NCBI GenBank assembly: GCA_902812415.1
Contig: CADDZJ010000024.1
Location: 1-42,584, forward strand
DNA length: 42,584 bases
Source: Acidobacteriota bacterium
Lineage (GTDB): Bacteria; Acidobacteriota; Terriglobia; UBA7540
Direction of reading: 5' to 3'
Shown: one piece after another, positions 11,403-35,983 of the stretch
How positions within the stretch are numbered: position 1 is the first letter of the stretch
Layout of the letters: the number at the start of each line of letters is the position of its first letter
Notes under the pieces: generated by a model
Seen by the model: the letters and a program-made list of their open reading frames with translations, nothing else
The model's database searches: none
Told to the model about the DNA's origin: nothing
Translations under genes and position numbers: made by a program

Positions 11403-11408
11403 TCTTTC

Positions 11409-13591: not shown

Positions 13592-13592
13592 G

Positions 13593-14603: not shown

Positions 14604-14605
14604 GA

Positions 14606-15415: not shown

Positions 15416-15421
15416 TTCGAT

Positions 15422-16813
15422 TCACGCCTCAACTTCTGAATAAGAGAGGCGCAGCCCCTCGCGAGCCTGAACAATCATTGATTCAATCTCCTGACGAGAA
15501 CCGTGTGAGTCGCCCCGGAACAGCAGTCGTTGCAATTCCACTTCCGAGCGGAGGAGTTGATCGGCATACTGATAAAAACGGCGGGAGTGCCGGCCGCGAA
15601 TTTGAATATCGCGGTCCGAGCTCTCCCGCCATGACGTAGGAGGAAGAAGCCGATCGGTTACCTGCTCAAAGTAAGGAGTTCCTTTAATCGGGTAAGCCAC
15701 CGTGGTCAGAAAAATATCTGGATCAGCGCGTTTGACATGGTTGACCGTCGCTTCGATGTCCTCGAGACCCTCGCCTTCATATCCCCACATCAGGAACATG
15801 CCGGTCTGAATCCCGCGCGATTTGCAGAGCTGGATAGCCCCCTGCACCTGTTCGACGGTCACGCCACGCTCCATGGAATCGAGGACGCTTTGTGAGCCGC
15901 TTTCCGAGCCAATCCAGATTCGGAAGCATCCGAGTTCCGCAAGTGCGTCCGCCGCTTGCGGGTTGATCCGATCGGCTCGGGAAATACATTCAAAAGGCAC
16001 TTTTAGATTGCGGCGCTTCATTTCGCAGGCGTATTGAAAGAGCCAACCATGATGGATCGTAAAAACATCATCTGCGATCCAGATCATGTCCGGCGAATAA
16101 CGGCTCATGATCCATTCGATCTCATCCACCACCGCAGCCGGCTTGCGGCGCCGGTGCGTGTTCCCATAGACGGAATGACTGCACCAGCGGCAGCGATAGG
16201 GACATCCCCTTGCCGTAATGACCGAGACGGAACCCACGCCGTGATGCGCTCGCCACGTGTCGATATATTTCTGGATGGAGATCGATTCGCGGCCGGGCCA
16301 CGGCTGCCCATCGAGATCGGAGATCAAAGCTCGGGGCCGCGTTCTTTCCACTTTCCCTTCTCCCCCGAGGAAGGCAATTCCGTCCACGCCAGCCAAAGAT
16401 GCAAACCCGCCTTCCTTCAGGGCGGGCAGGAGCTCTTCCAAAGTCTTCTCCGCTTCCCCGATGACAACAACGTCGGCGCCCGCATCGAGATACTCTTCCA
16501 CATAGTTTGCGGGCTCCGGGCCGCCAACAATTGTTTTCCAGCCAGCTTTCTTGGCTGCTTGAAGAATTGCAACGGCATTGCGCCTCGTCATCAGGTTGGC
16601 GTACACGCCCAGCACAGAAGGGGAATGGTTGCGAAGAACTTTGAAAAGGTCTTCACGCGAGGAAAAAGTGGAGTCAAAGACCTCTACGTCAAAGCCTTTC
16701 GCGCGCAGATGCGAGGTCAAATAGAGAATTCCCAACGGCGCGTAGGGCTTCATGATCTGCAACTCTTTTGTGTCCTCATAGAGGAAATAGCCGTGAGTTA
16801 GGAGGAGATCCAT
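15422..16813 (-). CDS. B12-binding-type radical SAM protein (BchE-like architecture)
   Basis: The ATG at 16813 is chosen because the protein then begins MDLLLTHGYFLYEDTKELQI, aligning with the paralogue at 16876; a TTG at 16834 is possible. The product has 463 residues. The N-terminal B12-binding-type domain (about 1-140) contains KPYAPLGILYLTSHLRAKGF and AGADVVVIGEAEKTLEEL. The radical SAM motif is C204, C208 and C211 (ARGCPYRCRWC), followed by a TIM-barrel with WIADDVFTIHHGW and the typical GSESGSQSVLDSMERGV. No DxHxxG cobalamin ligand motif is seen. The upstream gap of 62 bases contains an inverted repeat (16837-16842 and 16854-16859). The close paralogue upstream suggests a gene duplication with divergence of substrate. 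The substrate is unknown. Confidence 0.9.
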   Translation of the reverse strand: MDLLLTHGYFLYEDTKELQIMKPYAPLGILYLTSHLRAKGFDVEVFDSTFSSREDLFKVLRNHSPSVLGVYANLMTRRNAVAILQAAKKAGWKTIVGGPEPANYVEEYLDAGADVVVIGEAEKTLEELLPALKEGGFASLAGVDGIAFLGGEGKVERTRPRALISDLDGQPWPGRESISIQKYIDTWRAHHGVGSVSVITARGCPYRCRWCSHSVYGNTHRRRKPAAVVDEIEWIMSRYSPDMIWIADDVFTIHHGWLFQYACEMKRRNLKVPFECISRADRINPQAADALAELGCFRIWIGSESGSQSVLDSMERGVTVEQVQGAIQLCKSRGIQTGMFLMWGYEGEGLEDIEATVNHVKRADPDIFLTTVAYPIKGTPYFEQVTDRLLPPTSWRESSDRDIQIRGRHSRRFYQYADQLLRSEVELQRLLFRGDSHGSRQEIESMIVQAREGLRLSYSEVEA

Positions 16814-16875
16814 AAACTTGCCATTAATTCTCAATCATCCGATTTGAAAAACGTCGGATTGGTTCTTTCCTGCGA

Positions 16876-18375
16876 TCATGCCGAGCACGTCGTCGAACAC
16901 TCCAAGATGGGAAGTAAAGTTGGGTGAGTAGTTCGACAAGTCTTTTCCATGGCTTCAACCTTTGCCCAGAGGTCATCCGGATGACTAACCTCCCGGGCAG
17001 TCCGAGTGCCCTCGGAAAGGATCACGGGGAAGGGCCAGGCGCGGCGAAGGCTCCATTCCGCGACCTCCGCGTGAAGCGCATCGTGGAGAGCGCGGTAAAA
17101 CTCGGTGGTATAAGCGCCCTGGAACATCATGGAAATATCCTCGCTGTCGATCCAGTTTGTTTTAGGCCCAAGTTGCGCGCGGACCCGTTCGTAGAAGCGC
17201 GTTCCTGGCAACGGATAGGAGACGGAGATGCCGATATCATCAGGCTGGGTCTTTCGAATCAGGCGAATCGTTTGCTGAATGTCTTCCCAGGATTCTCCCG
17301 CATACCCAAATTGAATGAAGAAACAGGCGCGTATACCGGCGCTTCGGAGGTTCTCGCGGCTTTGAGCGACTTGGTCCACTCGAATACCCTTTTCCATAGC
17401 ATTCAGGATTTTTTGCGACCCTGATTCAACGCCCATCCACACTTCCGCGCAACCGGCCTGGCGCAGCGCGCGGGTCGTCTCCTTCTTCATGAGGTCGACG
17501 CGCGATTGAATTTTGAACGGAACGGAAGCGTCGAGACGCCGGGTCATTTCAGCTAGTTCAGCGACCCACTGAGTTTTCAAGCCGAAAATGTCATCCGCAA
17601 ACCAAAGATGGTCCGGGCGATAGAGGTTTTTCAGAAGGGCTATCTCCTCGGCCACGCTTTGGGCGGAACGCAGGTGAAACGCATCCCCGTAGATTGGCTT
17701 GGCGCACCAATTGCATCGGAAGGGACACCCCCGGCTCGTCGTGAGATTCAGAGAGAAGAAACCATGTGCGGACTTCCAGGCGCGACGATATTGTTCGATA
17801 TCGACCAGATCGCGCGCCGGCAAAGGAAGCGAATCGATGTCCCGCATTAAGGGGCGACGCGGGTTTTGTACAAGCGTCCCCGAAACTTTGTGGTAAAAAG
17901 CGAGGCCGGCAATCTCCTCCACCGGTCCCTGGCGCCTGCCAAGCAGCGACCCGACTAGCTCGATGAGCGTCCACTCCGCTTCACCCAGCATCACGAAGTC
18001 CGCGCCCCGTCTTAGGTATTCAGAGACATGATCAGACGCGTCCGAGCCATTGACCACGATCACACAGCCGAACTGCCGGGCCGCGCTGATCATTCCAAAC
18101 GCTACTTCTCGCATCCGGCTCAGGCACATTTTTGAGAGGAAGTTGAAATTATCTTCGTAAATAGCTACAACTTTGGGGCAGTGCCGGCGAAGGACTTCAT
18201 GGAAATTCCGCTCCGGGTCTTCGAGTGTGGAATCAAACACGGCAACCGAATAGCCCTGCTGTCGAAGCAGTGCAGCCGCATAAAGCGTGCCCAAAGGAGG
18301 GTAGGGCTGCATCTTACGAGCCTGCTTCCGGTCGTAATATAAATGGTAGGAATGTGTCAGAAGAATATCTGCCAA
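16876..18375 (-). CDS. B12-binding-type radical SAM protein (BchE-like architecture)
   Basis: The frame is open to 18411, but the TTG at 18375 is preferred: GGTGAGG lies 5 bases upstream, and the product then begins in register with its paralogue at 15422 (MADILLTHSYHLYY against MDLLLTHGYFLYED). It has 499 residues. The N-terminal domain (about 1-145) carries QPYPPLGTLYAAALLRQQGY, and the radical SAM motif is at C217, C221 and C224 (SRGCPFRCNWC). The core has LWFADDIFGLKTQW and GVESGSQKILNAMEKGI. A C-terminal extension of about 90 residues ends with Cys-Ser-Thr-Thr-Cys. No DxHxxG motif is visible. It lies downstream of the 18433 gene with a gap of about 57 bases. By family it may be a cobalamin-dependent methylase or cyclase; the substrate is unknown. 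Confidence 0.88.
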   Translation of the reverse strand: MADILLTHSYHLYYDRKQARKMQPYPPLGTLYAAALLRQQGYSVAVFDSTLEDPERNFHEVLRRHCPKVVAIYEDNFNFLSKMCLSRMREVAFGMISAARQFGCVIVVNGSDASDHVSEYLRRGADFVMLGEAEWTLIELVGSLLGRRQGPVEEIAGLAFYHKVSGTLVQNPRRPLMRDIDSLPLPARDLVDIEQYRRAWKSAHGFFSLNLTTSRGCPFRCNWCAKPIYGDAFHLRSAQSVAEEIALLKNLYRPDHLWFADDIFGLKTQWVAELAEMTRRLDASVPFKIQSRVDLMKKETTRALRQAGCAEVWMGVESGSQKILNAMEKGIRVDQVAQSRENLRSAGIRACFFIQFGYAGESWEDIQQTIRLIRKTQPDDIGISVSYPLPGTRFYERVRAQLGPKTNWIDSEDISMMFQGAYTTEFYRALHDALHAEVAEWSLRRAWPFPVILSEGTRTAREVSHPDDLWAKVEAMEKTCRTTHPTLLPILECSTTCSA

Positions 18376-18432
18376 CCGGACCTCACCGTTCTCTTTGCGC
18401 TTGGCCACCAACTGCGCGTCGCATAATGATTT

Positions 18433-19929
18433 TCAGCACACTTGCTGCATACCGCGTTGCAAGACCTGTCCCGTCAAGAGAGATCGCCGAGCGACCGCTT
18501 GTTCAAATCCACGGGCGAGCCAAAGCTCCCAGGGAAATGTGTACTGATCGGCCTGCAGGCGCCAGCGCAGCGGTGTCGCCAGCGCCTGGCGAATTCCTCG
18601 GCCCAGCCAGGCGCTCTTCGACGCTTGGCGCTGGGTCTCGGTACAGAGCATGAAGTAGTCGAGCATCCTCCTGAGTTTTTGAAACGGCTTGCCGGCTAGC
18701 CAGGGCAGTGGATTGTTCCCCAGGGTCATGTCGCCCCATTCCTCAAGACTTTGCGGTTCGCGCACACCTTTCCTTCGCAGTTCCGGCCAGATGGAGATTC
18801 CGGGATAAGGCGTGAAGAGATTCGGGGAAAAACTCACATGAGGATATCTGCGAGAGATATCGGTCATGACCCGCATGGTTTGCAATCGGTCGGAATCCAT
18901 TTCGCCTGGAAAGCCCAGGATCAGATTAAACGTCACGCGAATTCCCGTTCCCCGGGTCTTCCGCGCCGTTTCAAACATTTCGTCAATGCACTGGTGCTTT
19001 TTATTCATCAGCATCAGCACCTGTGGCGAAGCCGACTCCGTGCCAAACCCCATATGGCTGACTCCCGATTCAGCCAGGAGACAGACCTCGTCATCGCTCA
19101 TGCGGCAGAGGAGATTGGTGGAGGCTTGAAAAGTCCAGCGGAACTTAAGCCCCGAGTCCACGAACCCTCGCGCAATCGCCACGGCTCGCTTCACATCCAC
19201 AAGAAAATTGGAATCCAGAAAGGCCACTTCCCGGAGGCGCCAGCGCGAGGCGAGAGTCGTCACTTCGTTAATGACCCGCTCGGCTTTGCAGGCATTGAAT
19301 CGCTGGCCGTAGTAAACGAGATCGGTGCAGTAATTGCACGCATAGGGACAACCGACGCTCGATGCATAAGTGACCTTGCGAAGTCCGGATTTTCGCTCGT
19401 ATGCATCAAAATCTCCCATGAAGAAAGCAGGCGTCGGCAGATGGTTGACGTTCTCAACCGGACGATCAGGGTTGTGAATTACCTCTTCAGGTGTCTTCAG
19501 GGAGCTTCCTCGGACTCCCTCCGCGCCTTTCCCTTCGCGCAGCCGTTGCGCGACCTCCAGCATTGTCAACTCGCCCTGTCCTCGCACCACGATGTCAGCA
19601 ATACCCGCTGCAAGCGTCTGGGCAGGCAGGATTGTTGCGTGCCAGCCGCCGAAAATGATCGGAATATCGGGTCTCAGAATTCGGACGAGACTGGAAACCC
19701 GGATAGCGTCCTTGATCATCGGGCCGGTTAGAAATGAAACTCCAAAACAAAGCGCATCCTTGACTTCGTTCGCCACGGTCACTTCAGGGTCATCCGTGAT
19801 CGCTGAATCGATGATCCTCACGTGAAAGCCAGCCTGGACGAGCGGAGAGGCTACTGACAACAGGCATAACGGCGGCCCAAGAGGAGGCCCGTCATAAGGG
19901 GGGTAGTAAAGCACCACCTTGTTTTTCAT
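18433..19929 (-). CDS. B12-binding-type radical SAM protein (BchE-like architecture)
   Basis: The 498-residue protein has an N-terminal B12-binding-type domain (about 1-135) containing VVLYYPPYDGPPLGPPLCLL, GGWHATILPAQTLA and DIVVRGQGELTMLEV. The radical SAM core has CX3CX2C at C194, C198 and C201 (SVGCPYACNYC), plus AFLDSNFLVDVKRAVAIARG and GFGTESASPQVLMLMNKK. Its C-terminal portion (about 390-498) has LPWLAGKPFQKLRRMLDYF and FPWELWLARGFEQA. It is clearly paralogous to the 19926 protein along its whole length, including the C-terminal region, and less so to the 12128 protein. It overlaps the upstream gene by ATGA (19926-19929), and GGAGG lies 11 bases before its ATG. No DxHxxG motif is seen. 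The reaction is unknown. Confidence 0.9.
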   Translation of the reverse strand: MKNKVVLYYPPYDGPPLGPPLCLLSVASPLVQAGFHVRIIDSAITDDPEVTVANEVKDALCFGVSFLTGPMIKDAIRVSSLVRILRPDIPIIFGGWHATILPAQTLAAGIADIVVRGQGELTMLEVAQRLREGKGAEGVRGSSLKTPEEVIHNPDRPVENVNHLPTPAFFMGDFDAYERKSGLRKVTYASSVGCPYACNYCTDLVYYGQRFNACKAERVINEVTTLASRWRLREVAFLDSNFLVDVKRAVAIARGFVDSGLKFRWTFQASTNLLCRMSDDEVCLLAESGVSHMGFGTESASPQVLMLMNKKHQCIDEMFETARKTRGTGIRVTFNLILGFPGEMDSDRLQTMRVMTDISRRYPHVSFSPNLFTPYPGISIWPELRRKGVREPQSLEEWGDMTLGNNPLPWLAGKPFQKLRRMLDYFMLCTETQRQASKSAWLGRGIRQALATPLRWRLQADQYTFPWELWLARGFEQAVARRSLLTGQVLQRGMQQVC

Positions 19930-21449
19930 GGGCAGTTCGCCTCCACCGCTGGTTTCAGGGTCTTGGCATCTACGGCAGGCTTCGCTACCGGAATCAGCTT
20001 CTTAAGCTTTCGGTTCAACCACAGCTCTACGGGCAAATCATAGAAGTCGTGATCCAAACGCCACCGGGCAGGGCGGCTCAATGCCTTCTGGAGCTTCCGA
20101 ATTAATTTATTGGACTCGTATTTTGAAATCGGCTGGCGGTCAAAGGCAATACGCAGGTAGTCCCGCATCGTCTGCAAGCGGGCGTGGTCGCGTCCTTTAA
20201 GCCATGGGAGCACGGTATAGCGCGGGAAGTAGTCTGACCAGCCTTCAAGCGACTGCGGCGTTTCAATTCCAAGCTCTTTCGCTCGACTCATAATGGGAGA
20301 GCCTGGATAGGGGGTGAAAATGTTGGTCCAGAATTCCGCGCCGGGGAATCGCCGGCAGACGTCCATGATGAATTGAATCGTCTGCTGGCGTTCTTTAACT
20401 CCTTCACCGGGATAGCCGAAGATGATATTGAACGACGGCCTGATTCCGGCTTTCAGACATCGTTCGGCGGATTGGTAGATCGAGTCAAAGTCCTGAAACG
20501 TCTTGTTCATGAGTTTCAGGATTTTGGGGGAAGCAGAGTCAACACCCTGGCAGACCTGGCGCAGCCCTGCGCGTCGCAATAAGAGCAGATTTTGCTCCGT
20601 CAACCGCGCCGTCAGATTGGTCGTGGCCTGAATGCTCCATTGGAAATGCGCGCCGGCGCGAATGAGTCCCTCTCCAATCTGAAGTGCGCGATCGAGATCA
20701 ACGAGAAAGTTATCATCCACAATCCATAACATTTCGAGATGGTAGCGGGTCGTCAGGTCGACAGTTTCTTCCACCACCTGTTCAGCAGGGAGCGCATTCC
20801 ATTTGCGCCCGTACACGCCGGCATTCGTGCAATAAGAACAGTTGAAGGGACAGGCCAGGCTCGAGGTGTACATCGCCCACCGCCGGCCGCACAGACGCTC
20901 GTAAGCGTCAAAGTCAGCCAGATGATAGGCTTTGGGCGGAAGGTCAGCGATAGGCTTCAGCGGTCTTTCCGAATTGAAGATCAATTTTCCGTCATGTTTA
21001 TAGGCGATGCCTTGAATTCCCTCCAGCGTGCCGCCCTCCTCAAATCTCCGGGCTATCTCCGTGATGGCATCTTCACCCTGTCCGCGCACCACAACGTCTA
21101 CACCGTAAGCGCCAAGCGTTTGCTCAGGCAGCAGCGACGGATGCCAGCCGCCGAGAACAACCGGAAAATCGCGATTCCACGCTTTAACGGCGCGCGCAAG
21201 CTCCACGGTTTCGCGGATCATCGGACCGGTGACCAGCGAGATTCCCAGAAAAAGGGCGTCCTGGACTTCCTTCAGCACACGTTTTTTGAAATCCGGCGTG
21301 ACGGTGGAATCCACGAGCGTCACAGCATACCCAGATCTGAGAAGCGGCGTTGAAATCGCCAGCAGGCTCAGCGGGGCGGTCGCTTCCTGACTCGAAAATG
21401 CCGGAAAGAAAAGGACGACTTTTCTGGAAGCTTTCAAGCGTCTCACCAT
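19926..21449 (-). CDS. B12-binding-type radical SAM protein (BchE-like architecture)
   Basis: This 507-residue protein is the first radical SAM enzyme of the operon. The N-terminal domain (about 1-145) has VVLFFPAFSSQEATAPLSLL, GGWHPSLLPEQTLG and DVVVRGQGEDAITEI. The cluster motif is at C200, C204 and C207 (ACPFNCSYC), then IVDDNFLVDLDRALQIGEGL and GVDSASPKILKLMNK. The C-terminal region (LPWLKGRDHARLQTMRDYL; DLPVELWLNRKLKKLI) matches that of the 18433 paralogue, so this segment may hold the lipid or substrate-binding part. The start ATG at 21449 has only a weak ribosome binding site (AGTGAAAG) and overlaps the end of a 37-codon frame, which suggests translational coupling. No DxHxxG is seen. 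The substrate is unknown. Confidence 0.9.
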   Translation of the reverse strand: MVRRLKASRKVVLFFPAFSSQEATAPLSLLAISTPLLRSGYAVTLVDSTVTPDFKKRVLKEVQDALFLGISLVTGPMIRETVELARAVKAWNRDFPVVLGGWHPSLLPEQTLGAYGVDVVVRGQGEDAITEIARRFEEGGTLEGIQGIAYKHDGKLIFNSERPLKPIADLPPKAYHLADFDAYERLCGRRWAMYTSSLACPFNCSYCTNAGVYGRKWNALPAEQVVEETVDLTTRYHLEMLWIVDDNFLVDLDRALQIGEGLIRAGAHFQWSIQATTNLTARLTEQNLLLLRRAGLRQVCQGVDSASPKILKLMNKTFQDFDSIYQSAERCLKAGIRPSFNIIFGYPGEGVKERQQTIQFIMDVCRRFPGAEFWTNIFTPYPGSPIMSRAKELGIETPQSLEGWSDYFPRYTVLPWLKGRDHARLQTMRDYLRIAFDRQPISKYESNKLIRKLQKALSRPARWRLDHDFYDLPVELWLNRKLKKLIPVAKPAVDAKTLKPAVEANCP

Positions 21450-21556
21450 CTTTCACTGCAAGCCATCGGTCTTCGCAAGACTTGAACGATCAAATTACCT
21501 GCAACAGCATTGGTGAGTGTCACAGGCAGGTTTGGAGGCTGCAAAAATTTTGTCAT
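21443..21556 (-). CDS. Possible 37-residue peptide coupled to the first radical SAM gene
   Basis: An ATG at 21556 overlaps the stop of the O-antigen ligase-like gene (ATGA, 21556-21553). It opens a 37-codon frame whose TGA (21445-21443) overlaps the first bases of the radical SAM gene that starts at 21449. The peptide starts MTKFLQPPNLPVTLTNAV, continues through a hydrophobic stretch (GNLIVQVL) and ends with a basic Arg-Arg-Pro segment, one Cys (residue 33) and a C-terminal Trp. Overlap at both ends is what translationally coupled genes show. It may be a leader that carries ribosomes into the radical SAM gene, or a precursor peptide for the radical SAM enzymes, or chance. There is no clear ribosome binding site of its own and no known precursor motif. 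Confidence 0.35.
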   Translation of the reverse strand: MTKFLQPPNLPVTLTNAVAGNLIVQVLRRPMACSERW

Positions 21557-22902
21557 CGCACTGCGTTTCTGGAGCTGAACATTTGCGCGATCCGGGCCAA
21601 GGTGAGTTTCAACTGCCATGAACTGCCCGAGTCATTGATTCCGCAAGCTGAATGAGTCGGGGAGACAAGCGGAGAGAGAACCGCGAAGCTTAAGAGGATC
21701 AACGCGAGCGAATGGCCGTACGTGTAATCAAAGACGCCCGCAATCAGAAACCCGGTGAGCGCCAGAAGCGAGGTCAGACAACAAAAGAGCTCTTCCTGTT
21801 GATGCGCTGCCTGGAAAGCCAGGAACAGATCACGGTACAGCGCAAGGACCAAAAGAATTGCTGCCAGTGCAACCGGCAGACCGAAGGTCGAGGCCAACTG
21901 CGCCAGGTTATTGTGAAGGTGCCCGCGATAGCGAGGGATCGGCTCGTGGGGTTTGAGATACTGCAAGTAAAGTTCGTTGATTCGCCCGGCGCCCACGCCG
22001 ATCCAAGGATGCTTCTCGATCATCCTCCAGCTGACACGCAGCATCTCGATGCGCTCCTGGTTTGGGTAGTAATCCGGATCCATCGATCCCCGAATCCGAG
22101 AGCGGACGGGACCGGGCGTCGCCGCGTAGAGCAGCACCGGAAGAGCTGCGACGGCCCACAGCCATTTCGAGCGCCGCCGCGCGAGTTCAATTCCGGCGAG
22201 GAGCCAGCATACAAACCAGAGGGTGCGCGTCAAACTGACCGCAATCGCTATCAGGTTCAGAATCCAGATGAGCCGCCAGCGCTTCTGCTCCCCGGGATAG
22301 AAAGCTCGAAAGCTAAGCAGTCCTGCAAACACGATGACTTCTACGATTGCATAAACCATCCAATTTCCGAGAAATCCGCCCGTTCTCAGGTAAAAACGCG
22401 CAGGGCCACCCGCCTCAACGTTCGCGTGGAACATGACAATGTGCCTGAGAAAAATTACGATCAGGAAGATCGAACCGAGTCCTGAACTCAGAAAAACGGC
22501 TTTCCACGCTCGCAGGCGCGAGCCGGCGACTCCGAGGCTGGAAAGCAAAAATCCGAGACTTACCAGCAGCAGAAGATGCCGCATCTCACTCATGCCCGCC
22601 TTTCGATCCGGGGAGAGCAACCATGAGCCGACTTGAAGGGCGGCGAGCAGCAGCCAGAGCCAGAAAGAAAGAGGCAAACGCGCCGGGCGGCGAGACTTCG
22701 AGCGATCGAGAACCCGCGCCAGCAATGACACGGCCAGGAGCGATTCCGAAATCGCAATCGATAAAGGGACGGCGCCAATTGCCAGCGTGAGCGCCACACG
22801 ATCCAGCGGCTCTCGCAGAAAACCTGCCGAAGGAGGTTTGATGAGGCCGCTGGTTACTTCTTGTTGAAGCGCCGCTTCTAACTGCGCTGAAAGTCCGCTC
22901 AC
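21553..22902 (-). CDS. O-antigen ligase/polymerase-like membrane protein (Wzy_C type)
   Basis: The 449-residue protein starts with GTG at 22902, with AGGCGG about 5 bases upstream. It has about ten hydrophobic segments and the periplasmic loop region typical of O-antigen ligase or polymerase proteins (EKHPWIGVGAGRINELYLQY, then HLHNNLAQLASTFGLPVAL). The family joins polysaccharide or lipid-linked repeat units in the periplasm. It follows the DUF5777-like gene after 8 bases, and its stop overlaps a small frame that leads into the radical SAM genes. A second protein of the same family is encoded at 30551 in the divergent operon, so one may polymerise repeats and the other may attach the chain or the product of the radical SAM pathway. 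Specificity cannot be predicted. Confidence 0.85.
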   Translation of the reverse strand: MSGLSAQLEAALQQEVTSGLIKPPSAGFLREPLDRVALTLAIGAVPLSIAISESLLAVSLLARVLDRSKSRRPARLPLSFWLWLLLAALQVGSWLLSPDRKAGMSEMRHLLLLVSLGFLLSSLGVAGSRLRAWKAVFLSSGLGSIFLIVIFLRHIVMFHANVEAGGPARFYLRTGGFLGNWMVYAIVEVIVFAGLLSFRAFYPGEQKRWRLIWILNLIAIAVSLTRTLWFVCWLLAGIELARRRSKWLWAVAALPVLLYAATPGPVRSRIRGSMDPDYYPNQERIEMLRVSWRMIEKHPWIGVGAGRINELYLQYLKPHEPIPRYRGHLHNNLAQLASTFGLPVALAAILLVLALYRDLFLAFQAAHQQEELFCCLTSLLALTGFLIAGVFDYTYGHSLALILLSFAVLSPLVSPTHSACGINDSGSSWQLKLTLARIAQMFSSRNAVR

Positions 22903-22910
22903 AATTCCGC

Positions 22911-24161
22911 CTAATAAATCTGCCGCGTCAAATCAAAACCCACGAACAAGTTTGCCGGCGTATCACCCGAAGGATTGCCGATGAATGTGGCCCGAGTGCC
23001 TGCGCGCTGCGAAACAGTGGTGCCTGGGCTGTTTGTGAAGCCAAACGTAAAGGCGTGCCGCCAGATCTTTTTCTGAATGCCGAACGAAAAAGCCGGTCGA
23101 TGGATTCCCAGGTCGGGGCCGTTGACGAGCGTTGGAATGACTTCGGCCACCAGTGCCACAGTTGGCCGAATGTCCAAAGCGCCGCCAATCCCTATCGAAA
23201 ACGTGTTGATGCCCGGGAGATCAGGCTGCGAGTCCGTCAGATTCCGCTGCGGACCGAGCAAGATTCGGTTGTCGAGGGAGACGGTCGGAACGACGTAGAT
23301 CTGCGCGCGCCTCGTCAGGCTGCGCGAGACAATACCTTCAAAATTGACCGTGAAATTATTCGAGAAGTCGTTGCGTCCTTCCACAGAGAACCGGAAGCCC
23401 GCGTTCAACGGCTTGCCATCGTGCTCATCAAGAAAATGGTAGGCGGCCATGAGTTGGATGGGGCGGCCAATGACGCTGGGTGAGCGGTAAGCGCTGACGG
23501 AAAATTTATCCGTGACCCCGTAACGCAAGCCAAACGACGCGATGCCGAAACCATCCAGTCCTCCTAGAATGGCGCCGCGCGCGGGCCCGGTGAAAGCCGG
23601 ATCAAACGCAAAGCGATGATTGAAATTGACGTAAAACCCGTGCTTGTCGAGGCGCCGGCCAGTGGGAAGACTGAAAAGATAATCATCTCCCGCTTCGTAA
23701 ACCTTGCTCTTTTCACTGCCGGGTTTTTCTTGAGCGGACATGGCCTCCGCCGCTGGGGCCTTCTGCTGTGTTGTGTCCTTAGCCAGTTGGTTTTTCGGCG
23801 TTTTCGAGGGTGTTGCCTCCTGATGATTGGACTCCGAGGGCAATTCCTTTACCGTATGGGAAGCCAAATCCACCAGATATTTCTTCCCATTGTGTTCAAT
23901 GATCAAAGTCGGGTTTGAGCCTGGAACAAGGGTCAGCCCCGTAGAAGCGGTATCGAGCGCGGCAGTGTGGCGCGCCATTGGAGCAGACAACTCCACCGGC
24001 GCTGAAACGTCTCCCTGCGGATTAGCTGCGAAGCTCCGGTTCGATGCGGAAGCAACACACATCATGAAGATGAAAGCCGCAGCCAGGATCTTTGAGCCGC
24101 GGGGTCGCAAAGCAGCTCGATATGATTGACATGACCGTGTAAGAATTCGCGCGTTTCTCAT
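22911..24161 (-). CDS. Exported DUF5777-like beta-barrel protein
   Basis: The frame extends to 24317, but the ATG at 24161 is chosen because GGAGG lies 7-8 bases upstream and because it starts a good signal peptide (hydrophobic ILAAAFIFMMCVASA, cleavage near residue 46). The product has 416 residues. After a low-complexity Ser/Lys/Glu/Ala-rich linker (about 95-160) comes a barrel-like region with alternating strands (DKHGFYVNFNHRFAFDP, FGLRYGVTDKFSVSAYRS, FNIGIG-type strands), ending in an aromatic residue (FVGFDLTRQIY), as outer-membrane barrels do. The resemblance to DUF5777 is by eye. It is the first gene of the minus-strand operon, directly upstream of an O-antigen ligase-like gene, and so could be an outer-membrane port or a surface receptor for the product. 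The promoter region carries one of the paired CTTTACAAACT boxes. Confidence 0.65.
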   Translation of the reverse strand: MRNARILTRSCQSYRAALRPRGSKILAAAFIFMMCVASASNRSFAANPQGDVSAPVELSAPMARHTAALDTASTGLTLVPGSNPTLIIEHNGKKYLVDLASHTVKELPSESNHQEATPSKTPKNQLAKDTTQQKAPAAEAMSAQEKPGSEKSKVYEAGDDYLFSLPTGRRLDKHGFYVNFNHRFAFDPAFTGPARGAILGGLDGFGIASFGLRYGVTDKFSVSAYRSPSVIGRPIQLMAAYHFLDEHDGKPLNAGFRFSVEGRNDFSNNFTVNFEGIVSRSLTRRAQIYVVPTVSLDNRILLGPQRNLTDSQPDLPGINTFSIGIGGALDIRPTVALVAEVIPTLVNGPDLGIHRPAFSFGIQKKIWRHAFTFGFTNSPGTTVSQRAGTRATFIGNPSGDTPANLFVGFDLTRQIY

Positions 24162-24212
24162 TCTTGCGTCCTCCATGCTTGAAAGAGATAACACGCCCCT
24201 CGCGCGCCATGA

Positions 24213-24240
24213 GTCAGTGTGTTGTAGCCAGTTTGTAAAG
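24213..24240 (-). promoter_or_regulatory. Regulatory box facing the minus-strand operon
   Basis: On the minus strand CTTTACAAACT (24240-24230) is followed by 13 bases and TGAC (24216-24213). Inside it, TTACAA and CTACAA form a direct repeat with an 11-bp period, the spacing used by PhoB/OmpR-family regulators. It lies 79 bases upstream of the DUF5777-like start. It could instead be a promoter element for an alternative sigma factor. Confidence 0.5.
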
Positions 24241-24323
24241 ATTTCGTCCGCCGAGTGATTGTTAAGCGCGCCTTTCGGGTTCGCCCTCCATCCGATTACC
24301 GCTCTCTGCCGTTTCACTCAAAA

Positions 24324-24351
24324 CTTTACAAACTCTCAACAGCGGAATGAC
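24324..24351 (+). promoter_or_regulatory. Regulatory box facing the plus-strand operon
   Basis: CTTTACAAACT (24324-24334) is followed by 13 bases and TGAC (24348-24351), the same arrangement as the minus-strand copy 84 bases away. The second half-site is weaker (CAACAG, sharing the ACA core at the 11-bp position). It lies 123 bases before the ATG at 24447. Confidence 0.45.
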
Positions 24352-24446
24352 ACGCCTCATGGCTCCAACTGCTAACGTCAGACTCCAGGCAGCCAAGAGC
24401 AAGCCGTCCGGCGACCGGCCGTCAGACTCTGCCTGGGTGCAATATC

Positions 24447-26480
24447 ATGACGTTCGTTCGAGAGCTACGAATGGGTTCGGGAGACTTCTTCAAGACACAG
24501 ATGCGGACGCCCCGGGAGGAGACTTTTCTGATCGCCAGTTTGACCTGTCATCTCAAAACGAATAGCGAGGCGATCCTGAAACACGCCCGAAAACACTTCA
24601 TTGCGCTTTCTTCAGACTTGGCTGCTTCGGACGTGACGTTTCGTTTCTGGGTGGATGACGCGGCTGCCTCGCAGCCTGCCTCGGAGAAGCCGCGCTTTAG
24701 AGGAGTTGAAGGCATCGTCTTTGCATCGTTCAACAGGCAGAACTTTCTTCTGATGAATCTGGCGAAGCGCTGTGTCATCGGGCGATTCACGCAAGACTTT
24801 GTGGAAGATGAGGCGGGTCTAGGCAGAACGGTATTCCCCATTGCTATTGCAACCCTGGGGCCTGCGAACGGAATCAGCGTGATTCACAGCGCCTGCGTCG
24901 TTGACAAACAGCAGGGTTTGCTGCTCGCTGGCGCCTCGGGATCAGGAAAGTCAACGCTCTCGCTGGCGCTCTGCCAATTAGGGTACGAGTGTCTCTCAGA
25001 CGATCGGACATATATTTCATCGCGCCACGGCAGGCTTCTGTGTTGGGGCGCCGGCGGTCGGCTGAAGCTGCGGCCTGAAGCTACAAAGCACTTTCCCCAC
25101 ATTCCGATGACGAGAGTTGCTGGCAATTCCGGCCCTGAGATTTTCGAGGTAGACCTTGCGCAGGATGGTTCCACGCGCCGTCATTGCTCTGAACCGAGTT
25201 GGATTGTATTCCTTGAACCCAAAGAGGGCGCGGGGCTGGAATTAACCGCGCTTTCTCCTTCCGATGCTGCCCTCCGGCTGGAAGACGGTGTGCTGCAAGA
25301 ATCAGAGCCGGCAGTCAAATGTCAGTTGGACGTGATTCAAAACCTGGTGAAACGCCCCTGCTATCTTTGTCGCTACAGTGGCCCGCCACAAGTCGTCGCT
25401 CGCGCGCTGGCTGATGCGTTCTTTTCAACAGTCGGAAAATCCCCGATCGCGCTTCCTGAAACTGTGAAAGCAAGCGGGCCTTCCACAACCACATATCGAG
25501 ACCCCTTGCGACGCTTCACTCCTCTCGTTCACCAAACTCCGATCCGGGTCCTGGGCCGGGACGGGATGCTTGAGACCAACTCCTTCCGGGTCAGGGAACT
25601 GGCGTGCAGGTTCCTTAAAAGCGGACTCCCTGACGCTACTTCCAGACTCTTCTTCACCTGGAGGATTGTGGCCGAAGAGGATCATCGCCCGAGGTCTCCT
25701 TGGCCTCAACCCAGGGGGCTTGCGGCGGAGGGCATGCAGTGCGTGAATTTGGGCCAAGCAGGTTTCGTCGCGGCTGATCTCGGTGCGTGTGAAATCGTCG
25801 GTTTTACGTCAGAGAGCCGCGTCGCGGATGCGCCCGGCTTCGCTGGTGTTTTTCTGGCCGCCATGGCTCACCTCACGGCAGCCGCATTGCGCCTGACGCC
25901 AATTTCATCAGCATGCATCTCCAGGCAAAACCGAGGTTTGCTTTTGCTGGGGCCTCCCGCTTGCGGGAAGACCACGTGCGCCTACGCTGCGCAAAACTTT
26001 GGCTTTGAAATCCACTCCGATATGGCGACTTTCCTGGAAGTGCGCGGCGGACGGCTGCATGCCTGGGGAGAATTCTGGCCAGCGCTCTTCCGCCAGGAAA
26101 CTGCACGCTTTCACCCGGAACTTCTGCGATTGGGCCAGCCTCTGGAGCATGAGAACGAGATTTTTATTTCCGTGGAAAAAAGCTGCCTGATGGCTCAGGA
26201 TGAAAGCAACGTCATACCGATCCTGGCGCTGGTTCTTGAACGAGGTAAGACAAAGATACCGCGCCTGACCCAACTACCCAAAGCCAAGTATCTAGAGATC
26301 TTAAAAGCAAGCTGCCCCTATGCCGAGGAGCCGCAGAACTTATCGCATCGAAGCGCCGTCCTAGCGGAGCTTCTATCGATTCCCGCTTATAAGCTCGCCT
26401 TTGGAGAAGACCCAGCGGAGGCGGCCATATTCTGCCGGAGCCTTTTTACCACCCACCGCAGACTGGAGGGCTTGCGATGA
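24447..26480 (+). CDS. Tandem HprK-like kinase (two HPr-kinase-type domains)
   Basis: The 677-residue protein contains two copies of an HPr-kinase-like module. The first has IHSACVVDKQQGLLLAG leading into Walker A GASGSGKST (162-170) and SDD (184-186). The second has ISSACISRQNRGLLLLG, Walker A GPPACGKTT (502-510) and SDM (524-526). HPr kinases use the conserved Asp pair for catalysis, so the second copy, which lacks the second Asp and has an altered P-loop, may be regulatory or inactive. HprK-related proteins next to nucleotidyltransferases occur in some polysaccharide and peptide-modification loci, where the phosphorylated partner is unknown. No PTS HPr is encoded in the window. It is the first gene of the plus-strand operon and overlaps the next gene by ATGA. 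A start at 24471 with GAGAG upstream is also possible. Confidence 0.8.
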   Translation: MTFVRELRMGSGDFFKTQMRTPREETFLIASLTCHLKTNSEAILKHARKHFIALSSDLAASDVTFRFWVDDAAASQPASEKPRFRGVEGIVFASFNRQNFLLMNLAKRCVIGRFTQDFVEDEAGLGRTVFPIAIATLGPANGISVIHSACVVDKQQGLLLAGASGSGKSTLSLALCQLGYECLSDDRTYISSRHGRLLCWGAGGRLKLRPEATKHFPHIPMTRVAGNSGPEIFEVDLAQDGSTRRHCSEPSWIVFLEPKEGAGLELTALSPSDAALRLEDGVLQESEPAVKCQLDVIQNLVKRPCYLCRYSGPPQVVARALADAFFSTVGKSPIALPETVKASGPSTTTYRDPLRRFTPLVHQTPIRVLGRDGMLETNSFRVRELACRFLKSGLPDATSRLFFTWRIVAEEDHRPRSPWPQPRGLAAEGMQCVNLGQAGFVAADLGACEIVGFTSESRVADAPGFAGVFLAAMAHLTAAALRLTPISSACISRQNRGLLLLGPPACGKTTCAYAAQNFGFEIHSDMATFLEVRGGRLHAWGEFWPALFRQETARFHPELLRLGQPLEHENEIFISVEKSCLMAQDESNVIPILALVLERGKTKIPRLTQLPKAKYLEILKASCPYAEEPQNLSHRSAVLAELLSIPAYKLAFGEDPAEAAIFCRSLFTTHRRLEGLR

Positions 26481-27817
26481 ACGACGCGTTGGCCTTTGAG
26501 ATCGTCAGGGCTTTGTCGGTCCAAGCTTTGCCGGAGGATGCCCCAGATCGACTCAGCCGCTTCTCAGTTGGTCAATGGCACCGGTCTCTCGGCTGGTTTC
26601 ATGCAGGCGGCATTGCCCTGTATTTCTGGCAGCGGATGAAATCGAGCGGCGCACAGGCTGTTGTACCTCGAAACATTCAGACGGTTCTGGAAAATTGTCT
26701 GGCGATGAATCGCGGGCGCCTGGAAGTGATGGTGGAAGAATTCCGGTCTGTTAATCGTGTGTTTCGAGAAGCCAGAATTCAGCACGCCGCGCTGAAAGGA
26801 TTTGCTCTGGTTCCTGACTACTGCCCGGACCCGGCGCTTCGAAATCAATATGACTTCGATTTCCTGGTCCCTGCCGAGAGCATGGAGTTGGCTGACCGAT
26901 ACCTTAAAGATGCCGGGTTCGCTCGGAAGGAGCGAAGCCGGTGCAGTCATCCGGTCGTTTATCTGGCTGCAAACCGGCAAACGCATCCGCCGGTGAGCCT
27001 CGAAGACATCTATTCCCCGCTCACCCATCGCTCCCTTGAAGTGCATACCCGCCTTTGGGAAGCGGAGGCTGAAAAGATTTCATTTGAACTGCCGGCGAAT
27101 CCGCACGCCCGCGTGTGGGAGAGGGATTGGAACGGCCTCAAATTCCACTCGCTGTCGCCTGAAGACACGCTGATCTTTCAAGTGATGCATGCCTTCCAGC
27201 ACATGCTGAACAACAAATGCCGCATCTCGATATTTCTGGAAATTGCCCGCTTCGTTCAAACACATTCCTCTGACGACGTGTTCTGGTTGAAATTTGCCGC
27301 TTTGCTAAGAGGGCGCAGGCGCTTGAGTGAAGCAACAGCGGTGGTGTTTTCTCTGGCTTTCCGTCTCTTCGGTCCGGAAATACCCAGCGAAATCAAAGTG
27401 TTGCTTGGCAGATGGCTGCGCCCGCCGATGGCTTTGTGGGTAAGCCGGTATGGACTTCGGCTGGCGCTGGGAAACTTCTCTTCCAGCAAAGACAGCCTCC
27501 ATCTCCACAGGCTTTTTGTGGAAGACCCTCGCCTGTGGGCAACCGTGAGGCGGCGCAAACTTTATCCGTTCCAGCGCCCGACGGTGCCGGAAGGTGGTCA
27601 CCCGGGGCGGTTGCGGGCGCGCTACAGGCAGATAATCCACGTTGCCAGACGAATTCATTTCCACGTCGGTTCGGCTCTTCATTACGTCTGGGGGCTGCCC
27701 GCGTGGAGGTATACGGTGCGAGCCTCAAACCGCGCCGGAAACGCCATGTCTCATATCGAGACGCTTGCCGGACCCGAAATCCCGAAGGCGGGCGCGCTCG
27801 GATTCAGGAGAAGATGA
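26477..27817 (+). CDS. NTP_transf_5-type nucleotidyltransferase
   Basis: The 446-residue protein shows the features of the uncharacterised nucleotidyltransferase family often found near HprK-like kinases. A region at about 105-150 has LKGFALVPDYCPDPALRNQY, followed by DFDFLV with the catalytic Asp-x-Asp, and then YLKDAGFARKE. Further on come HRSLEVHTRLWE and LSPEDTLIFQVMHAFQHML. The family is thought to transfer a nucleotide to a small molecule or protein, but no substrate is known. The gene overlaps both neighbours by four bases (ATGA at 26477-26480 and at 27814-27817), so it is tightly coupled to the tandem HprK-like kinase before it and the Wzz-like gene after it. The last 60 residues are basic and poorly matched to the family. 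Confidence 0.8.
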   Translation: MNDALAFEIVRALSVQALPEDAPDRLSRFSVGQWHRSLGWFHAGGIALYFWQRMKSSGAQAVVPRNIQTVLENCLAMNRGRLEVMVEEFRSVNRVFREARIQHAALKGFALVPDYCPDPALRNQYDFDFLVPAESMELADRYLKDAGFARKERSRCSHPVVYLAANRQTHPPVSLEDIYSPLTHRSLEVHTRLWEAEAEKISFELPANPHARVWERDWNGLKFHSLSPEDTLIFQVMHAFQHMLNNKCRISIFLEIARFVQTHSSDDVFWLKFAALLRGRRRLSEATAVVFSLAFRLFGPEIPSEIKVLLGRWLRPPMALWVSRYGLRLALGNFSSSKDSLHLHRLFVEDPRLWATVRRRKLYPFQRPTVPEGGHPGRLRARYRQIIHVARRIHFHVGSALHYVWGLPAWRYTVRASNRAGNAMSHIETLAGPEIPKAGALGFRRR

Positions 27818-29100
27818 TGATGGACTATGAGGCGGATCGCCACCTTGCCCGGCGGGTCATCAGATTGCGCCGCCATTTGCCATGGATACTCACAGCCAGC
27901 ACTTTATGCGCGCTGATTGCTCTGGGCGTGAGCCTCACGCTGCCCAAGATCTATCGCGCAACCACCGATGTGCTGGTCTCTGAATCGAAGATCGGGACTG
28001 GGACGGAGAATACGCTGTGGCAGTATGCGCTGATCCGCACCTATCTCCCCTTTGTGGACAGTGATTCGCTCCTCAAGAAGGCGCTTCACGACCTCCATCT
28101 TGACGGACCTCCTTACCATTTGACGGTCTATCGCTTCCGCAAGAAGGGCTATCTGGATGTGGATATACCCAAGCACACGCGGTTGGTCGAAATTAATGTG
28201 GAATTTCCCGACGCGCAGATCGCGGCCCGGCTTGCCAATTACCTCGCGCAGCAGGCAGTCGCGTTCAACGAGCGATTGATGGCAGCCGACACCGCAAGCA
28301 CGCAGCTTTTTCTCAAAACGAGCCTTGACCAGGCCCGAGACCGCCTGAAGCGGGCCGCAGCCGAGCGGCTGAACGTGAAAAAAAAGGCAAAGATTGAGGA
28401 TCAAGAAAAGGAATTGAGCATCCTTCTTGCGGAGAAGGCCGACTTTTCGACTCAGCTTGAGCAACTCTCCATGGCCGTCAGCCAAAACCTGGCGCGGGCG
28501 AAAGCATTCTCTGAGGAGCTCAGAAAGGAGCCGGAAATTCTGAACCTGCAGAAAAGCTTGGTTTCGGATCCGTTCCTGCAACATGCGGTGGACAAAATCG
28601 GCAAAGTCGAAGATCCAAAACTCTCTGTGGTCGAACAGACGTTAAGCAAAAGCCATGAGGCGTTTCAGACCCAATATGTAGCCGCTGTGGCAGACGCTCA
28701 AGGGGAGCAGGCGGGGCTGAGGGCCGGTCGCTCGAAATTAGCGGAAATCAATCGGAACCTCGATCGCGTCTTGTCCCAGATCGCCCGAAGCCGGAATGAT
28801 ATCGAGATGGTCGACCGGCAGTATGCCCTGGCCCAGCAAGCTTACGCAACGGCCAGCCAGGATTATCTCAATGCCTCAATTTCTGTTTCTTCAAAGTCTC
28901 AGGATCTCAAGCAACTGGCTCCTGCAACCGTGCCCGAACAGCCGGTTCGGCCCAAGATGCTGCTGAACACTATCCTGGCGGGCATCCTTGCGTTGGTGGT
29001 ACTCAGCGCAGCGGCGCTGCTGGTTGAAGGCGTTCGTGAAAGCGCGCTGTATCTTCCTGTTTCCATTAACGAGAGGACAGGAACTACGGCGGGTCGGTAA
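27817..29100 (+). CDS. Wzz-type polysaccharide chain-length determinant
   Basis: Three consecutive ATG codons (27814, 27817, 27820) follow AGGAG; 27817 gives the best spacing. The 427-residue product has a membrane segment near the N-terminus (about 20-40: ILTASTLCALIALGV), a periplasmic region with PKIYRATTDVLV, a long coiled coil (about 150-340, with KIEDQEKELSILLAEKADF), and a second membrane segment near the C-terminus (about 385-408: LLNTILAGILALVVLS). The layout is that of Wzz/GNVR polysaccharide co-polymerases, which set chain length and couple synthesis to export. There is no cytoplasmic tyrosine-kinase domain. A longer in-frame extension to 27412 lies in the upstream coding sequence and is a shadow. 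It precedes the Wzx flippase gene by 5 bases. Confidence 0.88.
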   Translation: MMDYEADRHLARRVIRLRRHLPWILTASTLCALIALGVSLTLPKIYRATTDVLVSESKIGTGTENTLWQYALIRTYLPFVDSDSLLKKALHDLHLDGPPYHLTVYRFRKKGYLDVDIPKHTRLVEINVEFPDAQIAARLANYLAQQAVAFNERLMAADTASTQLFLKTSLDQARDRLKRAAAERLNVKKKAKIEDQEKELSILLAEKADFSTQLEQLSMAVSQNLARAKAFSEELRKEPEILNLQKSLVSDPFLQHAVDKIGKVEDPKLSVVEQTLSKSHEAFQTQYVAAVADAQGEQAGLRAGRSKLAEINRNLDRVLSQIARSRNDIEMVDRQYALAQQAYATASQDYLNASISVSSKSQDLKQLAPATVPEQPVRPKMLLNTILAGILALVVLSAAALLVEGVRESALYLPVSINERTGTTAGR

Positions 29101-29105
29101 TTCAC

Positions 29106-30554
29106 ATGGCGACACTCACCCGAAGCGAAGGAAAGCGAACCATTACCAATGCTGCTTCGATCTTCAGCGCTGAAGCCGCCAGCCGGCTCACAACTTTCGC
29201 CGTGGCCATGGTGATCGCCCGACGATTCGGCCCGCAGGCGCTTGGCCAGTATGCCTACGCGCTGGCGCTGGCGGGCATTCTGCTCGTTCTGCCGGATATG
29301 GGGTCACACCTCTTGACAACTCGAGAGCTTGCGGCACAACCCGAACGGCTACCGGACATGCTCTGGCGCCTGTTCTTCCTGAAGGCAGGGCTTGTGGCAC
29401 CGGTCGTTATGATTGTAGCCCTTTTGATAGAGGTCGGAATTCATGATGAGGGACGACGACTGCTCTTCTTGATCTTGGCGGCGCGCATGGTCCTGCAATC
29501 GATTTCACTGGGCTGCGCAGCCGTTTTTAAGGCCTTTGAACGCATGCACTACGTGGCGCTGACGCAAATGGCGAATGCCGCAGTCTGCTTTCTGGCGCTT
29601 GCCGCCTGTCTGCTACTCGGAACAAATCTCATGATGGTCGTAGGCGCTCTGGCGCTAGGGCAGGTGTTTGAAACGTGGTTAGCCTGGAAAATTCTCTTCC
29701 AGCATTTCAATCCCGGCGTGATTCCGAGGTGGGATTGGAAGCCTTTATTCAACCTGTTAGTGATGGCGGCGCCAATTGGCATTGTAACGCTTCTGCAAAC
29801 CATCAGCCTGCGGCTGGACGTTCTGGTTCTCAGCATCTTCGCTCCCAATCACGAGCTGGGTCGCTTACAGGCCGCCGCCTGGTTTATGACGCTCAGCTTT
29901 CTGCTCGCCACGCTCCTCATGACGGTTTTGTTCCCAAAACTCGCGCGGCTCTGGCAGGTTTCTGGGCTGGTGAGAGTTCGTTACATTGAGAGCCTGCTCA
30001 AGCATGGAATGCTTCTGGCCGGTCTTCTGGCCTTGTTGGTGTGGATTACGGCTCCGTATCTTCTTGAGGCTTTCTTTGGAAAATCTCTCGGCTCGGCGAC
30101 CATTCTGCTGCATATCGTGACTCCGGCGCTTCCTTTCGTATTCGTCAATACGGTGTTGTTTTATGTCTTCATCGCTGCCGATCGGCGCAAGACTTATCTG
30201 GCCTTGTTGGCTTTGAGCCTCACGGGCGGCTTGATCGTGGCGTTCGATCTGACGGCACGTTGGGGAGCGAACGGGGCCGCATGGGCAGACGTCGCGCGCG
30301 AGCTTGCGGAATGCGCTCTTCTGCTCTTTTGTCTCTACCGCGAGTCATTGATTCCCAATCTGGCTCCGGCAATGTTCAAAGCGGCGCTGTGCGGAGTTTG
30401 TTTCACCACGCTCGTTCTCCTGGTCGGGCAGATTCACACGGGCGAAGCGTGCGCTGCTGTGTGGAGCTTTGCGATTGTCGTCGGGACGTTGGTTTTTACC
30501 GGCTTGCCGAAATGGCGGCAAATCGTGTTGCTGGCGGCAGGAGGGCATGTATGA
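29106..30554 (+). CDS. Wzx-type polysaccharide flippase
   Basis: The 482-residue protein has about 12-14 hydrophobic segments and lies in the MOP superfamily of oligosaccharide flippases. The N-terminal part (TFAVAMVIARRFGPQALGQY) is characteristic of Wzx proteins. It probably moves lipid-linked repeat units from the cytoplasmic to the periplasmic face of the inner membrane. It overlaps the O-antigen ligase-like gene by ATGA (30551-30554) and follows the Wzz-like gene after 5 bases, the usual neighbours of a Wzx/Wzy pathway. The ribosome binding site is weak, so translation may depend on coupling. Confidence 0.9.
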   Translation: MATLTRSEGKRTITNAASIFSAEAASRLTTFAVAMVIARRFGPQALGQYAYALALAGILLVLPDMGSHLLTTRELAAQPERLPDMLWRLFFLKAGLVAPVVMIVALLIEVGIHDEGRRLLFLILAARMVLQSISLGCAAVFKAFERMHYVALTQMANAAVCFLALAACLLLGTNLMMVVGALALGQVFETWLAWKILFQHFNPGVIPRWDWKPLFNLLVMAAPIGIVTLLQTISLRLDVLVLSIFAPNHELGRLQAAAWFMTLSFLLATLLMTVLFPKLARLWQVSGLVRVRYIESLLKHGMLLAGLLALLVWITAPYLLEAFFGKSLGSATILLHIVTPALPFVFVNTVLFYVFIAADRRKTYLALLALSLTGGLIVAFDLTARWGANGAAWADVARELAECALLLFCLYRESLIPNLAPAMFKAALCGVCFTTLVLLVGQIHTGEACAAVWSFAIVVGTLVFTGLPKWRQIVLLAAGGHV

Positions 30555-32035
30555 GCCGCGAAACAAGGGTTTTCGCTGGATTGAACGGCTGGAGTTGGCC
30601 GGCGCTCGTTACGGTCACTCTGCTCATCAGCGGCCTTACAATCGTTCTGGCTCCCTTGTCCGCCGTGGCGATCGCGCTCGGCGTATCCGTTTATCTCCTG
30701 TTCGCTTTGGCTTCAATTAAAGAGCCCCTGCTTTACGTCACAGTTTTCCTGGCAGGTCTGATTGCCCTTCCGCCCGTATATCTCGAAAGACTGGGCGCAG
30801 TACCCATCTATCCTACAACGTTGCTTCTCCCCATCGGAGCGGGCATCGTCGTATGCCGCCTGCCAGACTTCAAGTGGCGGTTCGATGCTATTGCAGGCGC
30901 TTTTACCTGCTTTTTATTGTTCACGGGCGTTTCGCTTCCTTTTGTCTGGATATTTTCAGATAGCCAGGTGGGTTGGGGCAGTTTGCTGCGCTGGCTCATG
31001 CTGGCGCAGGCCGTTTTTATTTACGTCATCGCCCGGGGAGGTATGAGGGCTGAAGAAACTCGCCTCGAAACGCGATTGATGCCGGCGCTCTTCGCTGTTG
31101 CCGCCGGTTCTGCAATCTATGGTGTTATTGACTTTGTTTGGCCAATTCCCATTCCTCATCCGGCTGCTGATCAGTTTATCTGGCTGGGCAGCGGCATCAT
31201 CCGGCGAGCGCAGGGAGTGTTCTTTGAGGCTTCCAGCTTTGCAAATTTGTGCGGCTTCTTTCTTGCAGCAGCCGCGGCGGCCTTTCTAACCGGCAAGGAA
31301 CGAGCGGTTAGGCTCTCACAAGCATGGCTACTGGCGCTCATTGCTGTCCTCATGCTTGCTGTCTTTGTATCATTCTCGCGCAGCGCCTGGGGATGCGTCC
31401 TGACAACCATTTTGGTGTTCGGAGCGCTTTTTGGGCGAGTCCGCGCCGGCAGATTGGCCTGGTTTCTTTTTGCGTTGTGCCTTCCTCTTTTCCTCTTGCC
31501 GCTCTATTCGCCGGAGCTATGGAACTATTTTTTGATTAACCGCGTCGGTCACTTCACCCAGATTTTTACCGATCCCAACCTGGTATCCAGCGGAAGGATC
31601 GACACGTGGCGGCGCATCGCCGGAGTGCTTCAGGAGCATCCGTATTATTTTATTTTCGGCGTGGGCTACAAGTCCCTGCCGCGCACACGCCTCTTTCAGC
31701 AAGCCATCATCACAGATAACGGATTCCTGAATCTGCTTCTTGAAACAGGAATGGCAGGACTTGCCAGTTTTGTTTTCTTCCTCTCGGAGACTTTCCGCAC
31801 TTTCTGGCGGCTCGCGCATTCCCAGAACATAAAAACGGCATTCTGGGGCGGCCTTTTGTTCTCGTTCTGGTGCGGCGAGTGCGTCCAGTTGATGGCGGCG
31901 GATGCTTACACCTATTGGCGGAACATGGCGGTTTTCTTGACCCTGATGGGTATCGTGATGAATTGGGCTGAACGTGACGAAGCAGGCGGGCAGATCAGCG
32001 ATTTCCCCGGACGGCCGCGAACGGAGGGAAGATGA
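30551..32035 (+). CDS. O-antigen ligase/polymerase-like membrane protein (Wzy_C type)
   Basis: The ATG at 30551 has AGGAGG 6 bases upstream; a longer frame to 30260 only overlaps the flippase gene. The 494-residue protein has 11-12 hydrophobic segments and motifs of the O-antigen ligase/polymerase family, for example VFVSFSRSAWGCVLTT and the loop with EHPYYFIFGVGYKSLPRTRL. It probably joins repeat units (Wzy) or transfers finished chains to an acceptor. It lies between a Wzx flippase and a GT4 glycosyltransferase, so polymerase is the likelier role here. The paralogue at 21553 belongs to the divergent operon. The stop codon overlaps the next gene by ATGA (32032-32035). Confidence 0.87.
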   Translation: MSRETRVFAGLNGWSWPALVTVTLLISGLTIVLAPLSAVAIALGVSVYLLFALASIKEPLLYVTVFLAGLIALPPVYLERLGAVPIYPTTLLLPIGAGIVVCRLPDFKWRFDAIAGAFTCFLLFTGVSLPFVWIFSDSQVGWGSLLRWLMLAQAVFIYVIARGGMRAEETRLETRLMPALFAVAAGSAIYGVIDFVWPIPIPHPAADQFIWLGSGIIRRAQGVFFEASSFANLCGFFLAAAAAAFLTGKERAVRLSQAWLLALIAVLMLAVFVSFSRSAWGCVLTTILVFGALFGRVRAGRLAWFLFALCLPLFLLPLYSPELWNYFLINRVGHFTQIFTDPNLVSSGRIDTWRRIAGVLQEHPYYFIFGVGYKSLPRTRLFQQAIITDNGFLNLLLETGMAGLASFVFFLSETFRTFWRLAHSQNIKTAFWGGLLFSFWCGECVQLMAADAYTYWRNMAVFLTLMGIVMNWAERDEAGGQISDFPGRPRTEGR

Positions 32036-35637: not shown

Positions 35638-35812
35638 AACTTCCTCCTGGCCGTCTTCGATCACGCGACGGCCCGAACCTGTTCTTTTAATTGCTCGTTG
35701 TGATGTTTATCCCCTGAAAGCCACCCATGAAAGAAAGCTGCCATGCAGCGCCTGGCGAATTTTATCTATGGTCATGCAGCGGATCAAAGTTGCCCCCATT
35801 CTCCACCGTTAA

Positions 35813-35869: not shown

Positions 35870-35888
35870 TTGTAATTAAATTGTAAAG
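35870..35888 (-). promoter_or_regulatory. PhoB/OmpR-type direct repeat near the response-regulator gene
   Basis: On the plus strand TTGTAA occurs at 35870-35875 and again at 35881-35886, exactly 11 bp apart, with AG following; on the minus strand this reads CTTTACAATTTAATTACAA. The 11-bp period is the usual spacing of half-sites for OmpR-family response regulators. The box can serve the regulator gene itself, the porin-like operon, or both. Confidence 0.55.
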
Positions 35889-35983
35889 ATTTTATTAGTT
35901 TCTGTGTTTGAACGAAAAGAATGGTGTACGCTTTAGAGGGTTGTAGTCTGCCGTTGGACAGATTGCCTTGGGCCGGGGAGGGT

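Follow-up and report, generated by a model that had tools for sequence, protein, structure and literature searches.

The window, meaning the whole 42,584-nucleotide stretch of DNA that was analyzed, carries two operons that diverge from a 285-bp interval and, about 12 kb from that interval, a response regulator gene followed by a histidine kinase gene. The features to which we refer are these:

9055-22902, minus strand: remainder of the minus operon, encoding according to Pfam a Wzy-like ligase, five B12-binding radical SAM proteins, methyltransferases, an amidohydrolase and a radical SAM/SPASM protein.
22911-24161, minus strand: DUF5777 beta-barrel gene, the first of the minus operon (Pfam 1e-15), with its ATG at 24161 preceded by GGAGGA.
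24189-24193, minus strand: TGTTA, putative extended -10 of the minus promoter, 19 nt after TGAC; TGnTA is conserved in relatives.
24213-24240, minus strand: box facing the DUF5777/radical-SAM operon, an exact match with half-sites TTACA (24238-24234), CTACA (24227-24223) and TGAC(T) (24216-24212).
24324-24351, plus strand: box facing the polysaccharide operon, an exact match with half-sites TTACA (24326-24330), CAACA (24337-24341) and TGACA (24348-24352).
24370-24378, plus strand: TGCTAACGT, putative extended -10 of the plus promoter, 18 nt after TGAC; TGnTAnnnT is conserved in relatives.
24447-33270, plus strand: plus operon, encoding according to Pfam and NCBIfam an HprK-related kinase, a nucleotidyltransferase, a Wzz-like protein, a flippase, a Wzy-like protein and a glycosyltransferase.
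33282-35664, minus strand: genes of a cupredoxin-like protein (recognized by eye) and a porin-like protein, divergent from the regulator gene.
35871-35896, minus strand: two-repeat site TTACA-N6-TTACA, upstream of the regulator gene and facing the porin-like gene; the third-best match in the genome (E=0.42), weak alone.
36020-36697, plus strand: OmpR/PhoB-family response regulator of 225 aa, the proposed binder (Pfam Response_reg 2e-30, Trans_reg_C 3e-27).
36773-38527, plus strand: histidine kinase, the proposed partner (Pfam dCache-like sensor, HAMP, HisKA and HATPase), adjoining the regulator in relatives.

For the DUF5777 gene we retained the start at 24161; the mechanical open reading frame starts at 24317, a start that is unlikely and would place the box within the gene. 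A -10 element near 24190 would put the start of the minus transcript near 24178, ahead of GGAGGA and the ATG. The DUF5777 protein of relatives (L114:4180-5667 and L123:10641-12170) has a cytochrome c domain; neither a CxxCH motif nor a cytochrome match was found in the window copy (22911-24161). The part of the minus operon encoding the B12-radical-SAM, methyltransferase, amidohydrolase and SPASM proteins (9055-21449) is kept across Terriglobia, including cultured genera. In the gene pair at 33282-35664 the porin-like protein matched no Pfam family, and the pair stays beside the regulator in several relatives. Named genomes, scanned with the plus-operon kinase, gave no match.

The original prediction was that two identical motif copies in opposite orientation lie between the operons, that this is unlikely by chance, and that one factor, either a PhoB/OmpR-type regulator or an alternative sigma factor, co-regulates both sides. 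The motif CTTTACAAACT-N13-TGAC is indeed present at 24240-24213 on the minus strand and at 24324-24351 on the plus strand with 0 mismatches each, and these two copies are the only ones in the genome (261 contigs, 4.84 Mb). When the 285-bp interval was shuffled 300 times on a dinucleotide basis, an inverted exact run of at least 11 bases appeared in 2 shuffles and a 28-mer inverted identity of at least 21 in 1, while none of the 300 combined the 11-base run with the 21/28 identity, which bears out the claim that the arrangement is unlikely to be a chance one.

Comparison of the sites of family genomes led to the consensus TTTACAA-N7-ACA-N6-TGAC, and the true unit, which also includes a downstream TGnTA element, is longer than the motif noted at the outset. 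Each box consists of three direct repeats of approximately TNACA at 11 bp, namely TTACA, an NNACA unit and TGAC(A), and most radical-SAM-side promoters of relatives have a fourth unit, TAACA, 11 bp further upstream. Direct repeats at 11-bp spacing are what is expected of OmpR/PhoB-type binding sites, and the boxes are putative sites of this type. In most sites the TGnTA element lies 18-19 nt past TGAC, and in the polysaccharide group hexamer position 6 is often a T. The gap between TGACA and TGnTA, 20-21 bp, is too long for a normal -35/-10 pair. A search of 24100-24500 for sigma-70 promoters matching at least 9 of 12 positions (TTGACA-like and TATAAT-like hexamers 16-18 nt apart) found none.

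Besides the genome of the window, 11 members of its family have an ortholog of the first plus-operon gene (32-49% identity), and in 9 of these (6 at first look) the box stands in front of the ortholog despite the diverged surrounding DNA. The 39 family genomes together contain 56 sites with at most one mismatch, of which 31 are exact, vs 20 for the reversed control (sums made by hand). Many of the family sites are divergent pairs on one contig, 2.6-10.6 kb apart, with one box facing the DUF5777/radical-SAM operon and the other the polysaccharide operon; near or between them lie genes for an OmpR/PhoB-family regulator (225 aa) and a kinase (~583 aa). All 16 genomes with an exact box fall among the 22 whose regulator ortholog is at least 66% identical (hypergeometric 2e-6, relatedness ignored). 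Three of the 16 (G014, G027 and G008) have their exact boxes away from the two operons, with low scores of 13-25 bits. Six genomes contain the regulator but lack an exact box: in four of them nothing matches the plus-operon gene, G004 shows two repeats, TCACA-N6-TGACA, ahead of this gene, and in G018, where the gene and the regulator are both present, no array was found. Two relatives of genus g11, G013 and G026, have strong full boxes with a -10 element before TonB-like and YceI-like genes (L129:6193-6219 and L130:5966-5992), which indicates that the regulon is larger there.

The arrays are also found more widely. In an additional 57 loci of Terriglobia, T.ACA pairs upstream of the radical-SAM gene and oriented toward it numbered 40 at 11 bp and 20 at 22 bp, with 0-2 at other spacings; their density there was 2.4 per kb, vs 0.018 per kb in the remainder of the loci. 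Mirror-image arrays resembling those of the window are present in two of the 57, L187 and L253. The radical-SAM operon is present in Edaphobacter, Granulicella and Terriglobus, with arrays in several strains. The regulator orthologs of these Acidobacteriaceae are 52-58% identical and, provided that contig numbers were correctly matched, lie 10-30 kb from the radical-SAM operon in eight of nine strains. Upstream of the distant regulator orthologs the 11-bp spacing accounted for 11 pairs and any other spacing for 0-1; the flanks of paralogous regulators contained no pairs at 11 bp.

To search the whole genome for further sites we used a promoter profile built from 23 sites, all of other genomes. 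It gave three matches with E<=1, at 24189-24247 (5.6e-7), 24317-24374 (1.1e-5) and 35871-35896 (0.42), all within the window, and no other in the whole genome. As the matches comprise both boxes and the promoter of the regulator gene, the regulon appears small and local. Scored with a weight matrix from other genomes, the minus-strand box reached 36.5 bits, the plus-strand box 33.3 bits and the next unrelated site 6.6 bits. The third profile match lies 133 bp upstream of the regulator start, in the same position class as sites upstream of regulator orthologs, and may serve feedback on the regulator or control of the divergent porin gene. With loose motifs no genome-wide enrichment was seen, the noted motif giving 92 matches vs 110 for the reversed control at three mismatches and the refined consensus 11 vs 13 at two. 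The concentration of hits at envelope genes that had been anticipated for a genome scan was thus not observed, strong sites being found only at the locus. If judged by motif frequency, the measure put forward with the original prediction, the co-regulation idea would look weak; the missing enrichment of loose matches does not refute it, because the strong matches are restricted to the locus, and would be explained by a small and local regulon. One further candidate, a one-mismatch site at C16:14409 of the same genome, was rejected as a regulon member since it scores 18.4 bits vs 33-37 for the window sites and is not among the profile matches. The region C16:14409-14435 (L132:6410-6436) contains four units resembling the repeats, ahead of an operon with cytochrome c7, iron-sulphur and NrfD genes, and is possibly a site of another OmpR/PhoB regulator.

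The regulator encoded at 36020-36697 has the architecture of the OmpR/PhoB family, a receiver domain followed by a winged-helix Trans_reg_C domain, both far above the Pfam cut-off, and the kinase beside it contains HisKA, HATPase_c and HAMP domains, as a two-component system should. The regulator's recognition helix (TRTVDNHILKLRQKLE) is nearly invariant across orthologs, its winged helix matches the PhoB structures 1gxp and 1qqi at E=1e-18, and by sequence its closest full-length solved relatives are 2gwr and 2oqr (MtrA and RegX3 of Mycobacterium). We consider it very probable, from the sequence comparisons described above, that the boxes are tandem sites of this regulator, phosphorylated by its kinase, and that they switch both operons. 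The kinase would phosphorylate the regulator, which would then bind the three TNACA half-sites head-to-tail, 11 bp apart. The array would overlie the -35 region, with the TGnTA -10 element 18-19 nt downstream, and for this reason the regulator most likely activates in place of a -35 element. With one array toward each side, the B12-radical-SAM/DUF5777 and polysaccharide operons would be switched together, and the two-repeat site before the regulator gene may add feedback or control of the divergent porin gene. The comparisons made here show the repeat layout with its 11-bp spacing, its conservation at the two operon promoters as well as before the regulator gene, and its co-occurrence with the regulator; binding by this particular regulator, its phosphorylation, activation rather than repression and the start sites are inferred. 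The one-factor part of the original prediction, in its PhoB/OmpR form, is well supported by the same 11-bp repeats, conservation of the boxes at both promoters, regulator co-occurrence and related site at the regulator's promoter.

The putative sites are associated with this regulator through co-occurrence and position, and another OmpR/PhoB regulator of the genome could bind them, because the whole family prefers such repeats. A phosphate regulator, for instance, might be the binder and the neighbouring two-component system a bystander; related TTGACA-type repeats do occur elsewhere in the relatives G014 and G027, and other regulators of the family therefore probably use similar half-sites. 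We nevertheless regard this as improbable, since genomes with an exact box always have the adjacent-type regulator, the same array type is found at this regulator's own promoter and not at those of its paralogs, and none of the site-associated genes checked is a phosphate gene. Even less likely are promoters of an ECF-type alternative sigma factor, with TTTACA as the -35 and TGAC as the -10 element 17 bp apart. Both elements are invariant and the spacer is fixed at 17 bp in the aligned sites, but an invariant ACA lies between them in phase, the TGnTA element follows further downstream, and no sigma factor gene was recognized among the window genes examined. ECF promoters consist of two dissimilar elements only, whereas the boxes are built of repeated half-sites, and in other Terriglobia they are made of TGACA-like units, two or three of them 11 bp apart, a layout that a bipartite promoter leaves unexplained; the alternative sigma factor offered in the original prediction is accordingly disfavoured. 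It is hardly credible that the boxes are the terminal inverted repeats of some mobile element, or an inverted repeat of chance or structural origin. Their 32-nt arms are 75% complementary, and the genome has a repeated element with TTTACAAATTATAG ends, but the boxes of relatives are single or kilobases apart and face orthologous genes, a conservation that already contradicts this reading, and the repeated element differs in sequence and does not occur in the window. This element (~150 bp, its ends GTTTACAAATTATAGTGAC ... GTCACTATAATTTGTAA enclosing a GC-rich palindromic centre; contigs C2, C9, C11 and C94 of the same genome, L018, L024, L028 and L010 around 1502 or 604) is probably MITE-like and gives false matches to TTTACAAA motifs.

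Tandem sites of an OmpR/PhoB-family regulator are a mechanism of a known kind. The Pho box of PhoB and the PhoP boxes of Bacillus and Mycobacterium consist of tandem half-sites resembling TGTCA or TTAACA that are spaced by one helical turn and cover the -35 region. The regulator described here resembles PhoB in its winged helix; on the side of differences, no phosphate gene was seen among the genes checked at the strong sites, and the kinase has a dCache-like sensor with HAMP. The likeness to MtrA and RegX3 is one of regulator sequence and general to the family, and the targets differ. The ArcA box of Escherichia coli, recognized by another member of the family, is likewise made of direct repeats, often three to five, with an 11-bp centre-to-centre distance (PMC3798270). 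ArcA, however, is a global regulator with many sites, whereas the strong sites here are restricted to one locus.

No published description of this regulon was found in the literature searched (full text), in which both locus and regulon appear undescribed. On balance we lean towards a dedicated two-component system with a very small regulon that couples the large B12-radical-SAM/methyltransferase operon to polysaccharide assembly throughout the class Terriglobia, with regulator, boxes and operons staying together despite rearrangement of gene order. An uncharacterised acidobacterial envelope locus thereby gains a candidate regulator, binding site and promoters, defined with enough precision for experiments in cultured genera, and tying the product of the radical-SAM operon to polysaccharide assembly provides a lead to its function.
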